DNA of 64,000 nucleotides. Origin: Plasmodium relictum. Its lineage: Eukaryota > Apicomplexa > Aconoidasida > Haemosporida > Plasmodiidae. How positions within the stretch are numbered: the stretch's first letter is position 1; each line of letters opens with the position of its first letter. Below the pieces are notes generated by a model, which saw only the letters and a list, made by a program, of their open reading frames with translations, had not been told where the DNA came from and ran no database searches. Below are positions 2,858-8,281 of this stretch, piece by piece. Both the position numbers and the translations under genes were made by a program. The stretch lies in NCBI RefSeq assembly GCF_900005765.1, contig NC_041687.1:248001-312000 (forward strand), in the 5' to 3' direction.

Positions 2858-4825
2858 TTATATAATATTTTCTTCATTGTTTGATGCTATGTCTTTAATT
2901 TCTATACAAAAAAAAAAAAAAAAAAATATGTACATATATATAAATAAATTCATAGAATTTGATATTGATTAAAATTAAAATAAAAAAAATATATTATCAT
3001 AAACATAAATTTTATTTAATTCTTAAAAATAACTTTAATTTTTAAAAAACACAATATTATTTTACATAATTAATAATTTCATAGATTCATATATATTTTA
3101 TATGTATATTACTTTTAATTAATGAAGAAGACGAATACATATGTTTTAATATTTCGCTTGATAATTGAGGATGATTCTTTTTTTGGATTAAAATTTTTAA
3201 TTTATCAATCTGGTTTTCATCCAGTAATTCTATTAAAAAAAAAAATATATAAATATTTTTATGTTTCTAATTAAAATAAATGATTTGAAAAAAAAAAAAA
3301 GATATAAAAATTGAATAAAATAAATAAATAAATATAAATATATTTAATTTTCTTTTAAAAAAAAGAAAAAATTATTGAGAAAAAAAACTTTTTTATATCA
3401 GATAGGGATAACTGTTTAACACTTTATCTTCAAAATAATTTTTTCAGATGCCAAGCGTTTGCTTTCATCATTTAAAAAAAAATTATTTTTTCTCAAAATT
3501 TTTTTTATGTACATATATATATATATATTTACCTTTATAATTATTAACAAGCATTAATAACGCTTTATGCCAAATTACTGTTAATTGATTAGGATAATTT
3601 TGAAAATTAATAAAGTATTCAACACAGTTTCCAATAAACTAAAGAAAAATAATATGTATTATCACTGCTATAATAATATTATATAAATACTTTGTAAAAT
3701 TTATTTAAGATATTTAAAAAAAAAAATTTATGTTCTATTTTTCCATTTATTACTTGTTTAGGAAAAGAATATTTTTTATTAAAAAAAATGCTTAAAAAAT
3801 ACCCAATAGTAGAATTCCATTGAAATTTAAAAATTTGATTTAGTCCATTTATAACAGAGTTTATTGATATACTCATCTTTTGAATTATACTTCCAATAAT
3901 TATCATTTGCTTTTTTGTACATTCCTATATTTAAAAAAAATAAAAAATTTATAAAAATATTACATGAGAATAAAAATTTAAATATGAATAATAAATACAG
4001 TTAAATATTATAAAAAAAAATATATTAATTTTGTTTATCTATTTATCAGCTTGGGGCAGTACTATTGTCTTCATTTTTTTATAATTCCGACAAAACTAAT
4101 CATCATATCAAATAGTTCTTTTATTATAATTATTTTTTTTTTTTATATAGATATTTTATTTAAATGCATAAAATTAAGATAATATACATATTTTATTAAA
4201 TTACTTTTTGTAATAATGGAAACAAAATTCCCTTAAACCATGCGTTGGATTTATATAAAGCTTTTATTAAAGTTTTATAAAGAAAGGAATCTAATTTTTT
4301 GTTTTGATCAATGTTTTCTAAAATTATAGGTAGTAAAATGAATTCATAAAATTTACAAACATCCACTTCTTTTAATCCAGATGAAAATAACTTTGTTGCT
4401 TCAAAAGTTGCTTGGGTTGTCCAATTTTTTGGTTTTGTTAATAATAACAGTTCAAACCATCTTGGAGATTTTGTCAAAATTTTGAAAGCCCTATGCAACT
4501 TCCCTTTTTTAAAATGTGCTAAATCTTCACCTATTGTTTTATAACATTTTTCAACTAAAGGATCTATCTTATCTCCCTAAAAAAAAAAAAAAAAAAAAAA
4601 GTAATTTTTGTATTATTATAAATGGTATATAATATATATAATCTGATCCTAAATATAAAAATATTATATTTTTTTTTCTTTTTAATAATATTTTTAATGT
4701 TGTGTACAAAATTGTACTGCATAAACTGTTCAAAAATTAAAACATATTATGCCCTGATGTTTGTATTAATTTTATTTTAAGCAATTTTTTTTACTTTTTT
4801 TTTTTTTGTATTTTATAAAAAAAAC

Positions 4826-4856
<31 letters not shown>

Positions 4857-5411
4857 TATTAAAATTGCTCATAATAAAAATAAGAATTTATTATTTATAT
4901 TTCCCTTTTTCTTTTTTTTTTTTTTATTTTATTTTTATTTTAAATATATTATTACTTGTTCCTTTTGTATCATATCTTCTTTTTCTTTTTTCTCAATTTC
5001 ACGAGAAATTTCCTCATTTGCTTTTATATCAAATTCTTGAAAAATATCATTGGATTCATCTAATTCATTAAAATAAGAATCCTTATGAGAATCTAATTTA
5101 TTACTTTCATTAAAACTTACATCTGAATTTTCATGAATATCATCATCAAATTCTAAGAATTTATTAGCTTCTTGAATATTTTCTTCATCTAAATCATTTA
5201 TATTATGATGCAAGTATTCTTCATTTTGTTCATTAGCTAAATTTAATATTTTATTTAAATCATTTTTTTTCTTTATTTTTTTTTTTTTTTGTTTTTTTTT
5301 TTCTTGTTTCTTTTTTTTAAGTATTTTATTTTTTACTACTATATCATTTTTTAAATCCTCTTCAAATGCTCTTAGATGTTTATTTTTCTTTCTTATTTTT
5401 ATTTTTGTCAT
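2858..5411 (-). CDS. BYSL: bystin (Enp1), 40S ribosome biogenesis factor, 6 exons
   Basis: Minus-strand exons: 5411-4956, 4576-4205, 3924-3754, 3638-3533, 3229-3113 and probably 2901-2858, giving about 421 residues. Exon 1 is a Lys-rich then acidic N-terminal extension. From exon 2 the protein follows bystin closely: [20 protein letters not shown], then [52 protein letters not shown] and [12 protein letters not shown]. Bystin/Enp1 is a nucleolar protein needed for 18S rRNA processing and 40S export. The exon 3 donor at 3753 was chosen over one at 3690 because it restores gapless alignment (PKQ joined to FIGNCVEYF) and gives a 115-nt intron instead of 52. The last exon is the least certain; without it the frame stops near 3087. 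Introns 2 and 4 contain box C/D snoRNAs. Confidence 0.92.
3388..3481 (-). ncRNA. box C/D snoRNA in bystin intron 4, double LSU guide
   Basis: On the minus strand: C box ATGATGA (3471-3465), D' CTGA (3447-3444), C' TGAAGA (3432-3427), D CTGA (3401-3398), with U-tract and A-tract ends that can pair. Both guide regions are antisense to conserved large-subunit rRNA. Upstream of D the complement reads AGGGATAACTG (3404-3414), the A-loop region sequence ACAGGGAUAACUGG. Upstream of D' it reads GCCAAGCGTT (3450-3459), found about 10 nt further along LSU (GGCCAAGCGUUCAUAGC). By the five-nucleotide rule the targets would be the second G of AGGG and the second C of GCC. It lies in the sense strand of its host intron, so release by splicing is likely. 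The rRNA matches are from memory. Confidence 0.87.
4039..4115 (-). ncRNA. box C/D snoRNA in bystin intron 2
   Basis: Minus strand: C box ATGATGA (4106-4100), C'-like TGAAGA (4073-4068), D box CTGA (4049-4046), and a 6-bp terminal stem CTATTT (4115-4110) with AAATAG (4044-4039). The D' box is weak (CGGA near 4090). The guide upstream of D complements TGGGGCAGTAC (4052-4062), which resembles conserved LSU rRNA CUGGGGCGGUACAUCUG with one position becoming G-U. The predicted methylated base is the second G of GGGG. The host intron belongs to a ribosome-biogenesis gene, a common arrangement for intronic snoRNAs. Confidence 0.75.
4700..4760. other. structured GC island in bystin intron 1
   Basis: The block holds a 14-base perfect palindrome GTACAAAATTGTAC (4704-4717) and pairing arms GCATAA (4719-4724) and TTATGC (4747-4752). 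No C/D or H/ACA box set is complete, so I only call structure. Its position in another intron of the snoRNA host gene makes it worth testing as a further intronic RNA. Confidence 0.25.
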
Positions 5412-7088: not shown

Positions 7089-8281
7089 CCTTAAGTATTC
7101 TTTATATATGAAATTTTATCTAAACTGTTTTTATTATATTTTTTTTTTTATTATTAATATTATTTTCTCAGATATTAAATATCATCAAATTTTATTTCAG
7201 ACATATGCTTGTCAAAAATTTTATAACTCATCATTGAAAATAAAATTAATAAACTATCATTACTGGAATTTTTTTATAAAATTCGCGGTATAGTATTAAA
7301 AAACAGTTTTTTCCTGATAATGTCGTGCATTTTTTTTCTTTAAATAAATATTTCATTAATAAAGTAAATATATATATTATGTACTGATGATATCATTTTA
7401 TAAATTAAAATGATGGAATAAAATTACAAAAAAAAAATTCTTGTAGTATAAAAAAGTATATAAAAAAATATTTTTTATATAAAAAATTAGTATTATCTTC
7501 ATATAGTATTTAAATAAATAAAGCAAAATCCTTTAAAACAAGCATTTTACTTTTATGAAATAAAGAATGTTATAAAAAAATAGCAGTACATATATGAATA
7601 AGCAAAAAGTTATCTATATATTAGAGTTTATTTTAAAATATTGAATTAAAATATATGTATTTAAGTAAACAATTATATAATTTATTAAATAAAAAAAAGT
7701 AGAAAAAAAAAAATATTTAAATAAAATAAATTTTTATATATCATGTATATATATAAATTATGCTATATTGCAAAATATATATTAATAGTGTATCAGAAAA
7801 AAATATATATTTAACATAACCACTGATAACACTAATATTAGATATATATATATATATAATTTTAAAATAATTAATTATTATAATATTCCATTATATCATA
7901 AAATAGAATTTAAATTAAATTTATTTTCAAAAATCAATAATATGAAGAAAAGATTAACCAAAAAATTTATATACCTTTTTTCAAATATCTAAAACATTTT
8001 ATCTTTATATTTTTTTTTTTTAACTTAGCATGTAAAAATATGTATGTAAATCAAAATATATAAAATAAATTTTTTTTTATTTTTTTTATTCGTGTCGTAA
8101 AGTATTGAATATAAAAAAGAAAAATAATTTTGTCAAAAAAAAAAACAAAAAAAAATAAAAAAATAAAATAAATACGGAAGAGAAACAAAATTTGTTTAAA
8201 AATAGTTTTAATTATATAATTTAAAAATTACAATTTAATATTCATACTTAAAATTAGAAAGTACTATTTGATTTTTATAAA
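5412..8281. other. 2.9-kb intergenic region between bystin and eL36
   Basis: Divergent spacer that must contain promoters for bystin (-) and eL36 (+). It is almost pure A/T with long homopolymers. Exceptions are a GC-richer island at about 6285-6365, a GATA microsatellite at 7034-7088, a perfect 9-bp hairpin at 7392-7414 and a longer bulged hairpin at 7786-7834. Short open frames at 6696 and 7108 (+) have no coding look. Confidence 0.6.
7034..7088. repeat. (GATA)n microsatellite
   Basis: About thirteen tandem copies of the tetranucleotide GATA, unusual here because nearly all other simple repeats are A/T only. Confidence 0.95.

Follow-up and report, generated by a model that had tools for sequence, protein, structure and literature searches.

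A snoR09/PFS7 box C/D snoRNA in a bystin intron of Plasmodium relictum, with predicted guides for two neighbouring LSU rRNA sites

Intron 4 of the Plasmodium relictum bystin (Enp1) gene contains a box C/D snoRNA that is almost certainly the orthologue of P. falciparum PFS7, the snoR09 family of Rfam, with the same D-guide role, and that has a second putative guide in front of box D′. The RNA lies on the minus strand at 3392–3476 of the window, by which we mean the whole 64 kb stretch of DNA that was analysed. Searched with RF01586 (snoR09), the minus strand from 3476 to 3392 scored 97.2 bits where the cut-off is 50, aligned to the entire model (1–84 of 84) and gave an E value of 3.4e-15 for the window. 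An earlier note on this DNA had drawn the element wider, as 94 nt at 3388–3481; the Rfam ends reduce it to 85 nt. The RNA itself is not new, being known as snoR09 in Rfam and as PFS7 in P. falciparum. The term ‘snoR09’ together with ‘Plasmodium’ was not found in the literature searched, and neither ‘snoR09’ nor ‘PFS7’ occurs in the available part of PMC3979661.

Along the minus strand the boxes follow in the order C, D′, C′ and D. Box C (ATGATGA, 3465–3471) and box D (CTGA, 3398–3401) give the RNA a RUGAUGA towards its 5′ end and a CUGA towards its 3′ end, the arrangement that defines a box C/D RNA, and these two boxes and box D′ (CTGA, 3444–3447) were read from the sequence. Box C′ (TGAAGA, 3427–3432) is one letter off TGATGA and has the same six letters in PFS7. 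The D′ guide, AACGCTTGGC (3450–3459), is the reverse complement of GCCAAGCGTT in LSU rRNA, and the D guide, CAGTTATCCCT (3404–3414), is the reverse complement of AGGGATAACTG. Counting both strands, there is a single copy of each guide string in the 64 kb window, and a first-order model of the window expects the two strings at 2.4e-8 and 3.0e-8 per position.

The host gene (3087–5411, minus strand) was pieced together by visual reading of open frames and splice sites into five exons at 5411–4956, 4576–4205, 3924–3754, 3638–3533 and 3229–3087. The joined exons encode 415 residues, of which 130–404 match Pfam Bystin (PF05291) with 310.6 bits and an E value of 1.4e-92; the host intron of the snoRNA is therefore bystin intron 4 (3230–3532, 303 nt), with GT at 3532 and AG ending at 3230. 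The boxes, the RF01586 match and the Pfam match agree with the earlier description of a box C/D snoRNA with four ordered boxes on the sense strand of this intron. PFS7, published in 2009 by Mishra, Kumar and Sharma, was assigned to an intron of the P. falciparum Enp1 homologue PF11_0105 (PMC2656528, as far as its text is available), and the locations in the two species are syntenic. Within the intron, 56 nt precede the snoRNA and 162 nt follow it, whereas the intronic P. falciparum RNAs, except PFS16, are given as >100 nt from the 5′ splice site in the available part of PMC2656528. The same part of that paper reports confirmed expression for 14 of its 18 RNAs, 13 of them by northern blot, and singles out PFS2 and PFS16 as without expression evidence; PFS7 is named neither way there, and a PFS7 oligonucleotide appears in the methods. 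Potential orthologues in other Plasmodium species are stated for most of the 18 RNAs (PMC2656528, available part).

The P. relictum RNA shares with PFS7/snoR09 its boxes, D guide, 9-nt D′ core, host gene and neighbour order. Overall, 71 of 79 aligned positions are identical to PFS7, with 8 substitutions. The D′ core, ACGCTTGGC, is identical here, in PFS7 and in the Rfam consensus, and at its outermost, tenth letter the D′ guide has A here and T in PFS7, so that the D′ duplex would be one pair longer than that of PFS7. If the 9-nt core stands for the D′ guide, the 43 positions of boxes, guides and D spacer show no difference between the two RNAs while the remaining 36 show 8 (Fisher p 0.0012), and with the tenth letter counted inside the proportions become 1/44 and 7/35 (p 0.019); these position sets, which include the 2-nt spacer before box D, were marked after seeing the sequence and describe one species pair. 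Conservation of the boxes in a sister species, on which the earlier note had made its reading depend, was found in P. falciparum, the one species compared, down to the letters of box C′.

The guides were paired with yeast and human LSU segments. The rule applied asks for some 10 nt or more of guide immediately before D, D′ or both, and sets the methyl group at the fifth nucleotide. Against these yeast and human segments, the D guide forms 11 bp with AGGGATAACTG and would put the methyl group on the second G, while the D′ guide forms 10 bp with GCCAAGCGTT, including one G–U pair with yeast, and would put it on the second C; both guides thus have the length that the rule asks for. The corresponding PFS7 duplexes, with the same LSU segments, are 9 bp for D′ and 12 bp, one of them G–U, for D. 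On the yeast and human LSU, the predicted target nucleotides are 21 apart and the gap between the two segments is 10 nt, in keeping with the earlier proposal of two guides aimed at segments about 10 nt apart. From the base pairing, the predicted product of the D guide is Gm at the second G of AGGG, which corresponds to yeast Gm2815, and that of the D′ guide is Cm at the second C of GCCAAGCG of Plasmodium 28S, which corresponds to Arabidopsis Cm2837. In yeast, position 2921 belongs to the A-loop and position 2815 to the peptidyl-transferase loop. The numbering of PMC11542601 (available part) puts 2815 at 106 nt ahead of 2921, which makes the A-loop label of the earlier note a loose one. The two nucleotides named in the earlier note, the second G of AGGG and the second C of GCC, are those tabulated as Arabidopsis Gm2816/yeast Gm2815 and as Arabidopsis Cm2837 in the available part of the same review. 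A scan of viral_contigs for a conserved LSU string returned 0 stretches.

The RF00213 (snoR38) model matches weakly at 3369–3441, with 26.6 bits and far under its cut-off of 45, and we read this match as a reflection of the shared guide. Yeast snR38, human snR38 (alias SNORD1) and Arabidopsis SnoR38Y are directed at the LSU G that the D guide here addresses, the likeness being one of listed sites. In the available part of a 2024 review (PMC11542601), Arabidopsis Gm2816 is equated with human Gm4392, yeast Gm2815 and O. tauri Gm2647, and Arabidopsis Cm2837 with O. tauri Cm2668, the latter row having no yeast or human entry. The Cm2837 site is given there as mapped in Arabidopsis, tomato and tobacco, and the O. 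tauri sites are predictions according to the review text. The spacing of 21 recurs in both pairs of that table, Gm2816/Cm2837 and Gm2647/Cm2668. In a 2021 Arabidopsis profile, G2816 is assigned to SnoR38Y and C2837 to SnoR24 (PMC8053127, available part); SnoR24, likened here by its listed target, is given there as the guide for the equivalent of the D′ site and as a separate RNA, and the separate listing means two Arabidopsis RNAs where Plasmodium appears to have a single one. The name ‘snoR24’ was absent from the literature matches listed in a dedicated search.

We propose that the snoRNA would be transcribed within the bystin pre-mRNA, released from intron 4 after splicing and assembled with Snu13, Nop56, Nop58 and fibrillarin. 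In the resulting particle, the D guide would direct 2′-O-methylation of the second G of AGGG in 28S, the yeast Gm2815 equivalent, and the D′ guide that of a C 21 nt further on, the Arabidopsis Cm2837 equivalent. It is probable that both guides act. Among the literature matches listed, we saw no 2′-O-methyl map for Plasmodium; the RiboMeth-seq data in PMC9778586 are from T. brucei, and the available text of that paper describes Plasmodium rRNA as generally 2′-O-methylated, with no sites given.

The main alternative is a single-guide snoRNA of the snR38 type, in which only the D guide methylates, producing the Gm, and the D′ complement just holds or folds the pre-rRNA. In the available part of PMC2656528, PFS7 is partnered with yeast LSU Gm2815, snR38 and AtsnoR38 and has one methylation site; four of the 18 RNAs are said to have two antisense regions, those with more than one site in Table 1 being PFS1, PFS2, PFS3 and PFS8; and PFS7 is not among the five RNAs named with a C′ box, which counts against an active D′ guide. 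With a single listed site and an uncounted C′ there, the second guide is a reading of the present analysis. The site of PFS7 is printed in Table 1 as 28S Cm3176 beside yeast Gm2815 (PMC2656528, available part), and an Entamoeba study tabulates the same RNA as 28S Gm3176 (PMC3542256, available part), suggesting that Cm3176 is likely a slip for Gm3176. If it is taken as Gm3176, the D′ site, 3197 by arithmetic, is unlisted in the available part of PMC2656528; alternatively, 3176 would be the D′ cytosine and the D site would be the unlisted one, and one site is given either way. The missing yeast and human entries for the D′ site in the available plant table (PMC11542601), the D′ duplex being shorter than that of D and the C′ box being one letter off also fit a single guide. 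However, the 9-nt D′ core is invariant among P. relictum, P. falciparum and the Rfam consensus, and the D′ register falls on the C whose methylation in Arabidopsis, tomato and tobacco is mapped as Cm2837 (PMC11542601, available part). We regard a single-guide RNA as unlikely and favour two acting guides.

Two further origins were considered and rejected. The boxes are short and common by themselves and C′ is degenerate, so that an A/T-rich intron might bring boxes and short complements together by chance; the Rfam score and window E value, the expectation of only 2–3e-8 per position for the guide strings and the host-gene location shared with P. falciparum (PMC2656528, available part) are decisive against this, leaving it a negligible probability and bearing out the earlier judgement that chance was very unlikely. 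The other is a decayed snoR09 pseudogene with a working copy elsewhere. At E≤0.001, snoR09 has 1 match in the 22.6 Mb assembly, a possibly incomplete one, when the best 62 of 21,325 candidates were scored, and a separate DNA search of the assembly for the snoRNA likewise gave a single match; with the boxes and guide cores intact as well, a pseudogene copy is highly improbable. An orthologue of PFS7 with two guides is thus the reading that we retain.

What is preserved in the P. relictum genome is a published Plasmodium snoRNA together with its bystin locus. The D′ guide would supply this RNA with a second target near the catalytic centre of the ribosome, and the point possibly worth printing is that a plant-type Cm site, the D′ target, would be addressed by the same RNA. 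It is reasonably likely that one malaria-parasite snoRNA serves both the shared peptidyl-transferase-loop Gm and a Cm 21 nt downstream, and that this Cm could be absent from the host. In the available part of PMC11542601 the Cm site is a mapped one for plants and a predicted one for a green alga, with no entry for yeast or human; if methylated, the D′ target C could distinguish the parasite ribosome from that of its animal host.

The snoRNA is enclosed by an external stem whose 5′ arm (3477–3505, minus strand) is 86% complementary over 29 nt to the 3′ arm (3366–3394), the latter overlapping the last 3 nt of the snoRNA. Together with the 3-bp stem of the Rfam model, these arms provide a terminal stem, which is almost unbroken and exceeds that of the model, although A/T-rich sequence favours complementary arms by itself and the stem was read in this species alone. 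Folding of 3370–3498 on the minus strand gave a z score of -2.94, with 2 of 200 shuffles equally good. Judged from the pairing of its arms, the external stem would bring the RNA ends together for intron release. In the isolated fold, AACGCUU, part of the D′ guide, pairs with AAGUGUU inside the RNA, a point against the proposed two-guide mechanism.

Three other snoRNAs accompany this one on the minus strand. Bystin intron 2 holds snoR10/PFS5, of the U31/snR67 type (4042–4111), which scored 81.0 bits with RF01587 (cut-off 65) and is identical to PFS5 at 60 of 67 aligned positions. At 7164–7239 lies SNORD27/PFS4 (U27), with 57.3 bits for RF00086 (cut-off 52) and 62/73 aligned positions identical to PFS4. 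The snR61/PFS6 copy, of the U38 type (2459–2526; RF00476, 48.4 bits against a cut-off of 45), agrees with PFS6 at 51 of 65 aligned positions and is located 560 nt past the stop codon of bystin, whereas PFS6 in P. falciparum is given as intronic in the available part of PMC2656528. This copy retains its D′ guide, CAGTTCTGCTT; the stretch before box D is unlike that of PFS6, so any guide there has not been kept. The order S6–S7–S5–S4 (snR61, snoR09, snoR10 and SNORD27) and the strand are the same in the window and in P. falciparum, where the four RNAs are placed on chromosome 11 at 388057–392950 (PMC2656528, available part). Finally, positions 127–201 of the 207 in the H/ACA model plasmodium_snoR11 (RF01589), part of the second half of snoR11, match the minus strand of bystin intron 1 at 4704–4778 with 42.5 bits against a cut-off of 80. 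This is possibly a diverged snoR11 orthologue, in which case three of the four bystin introns would carry a snoRNA.
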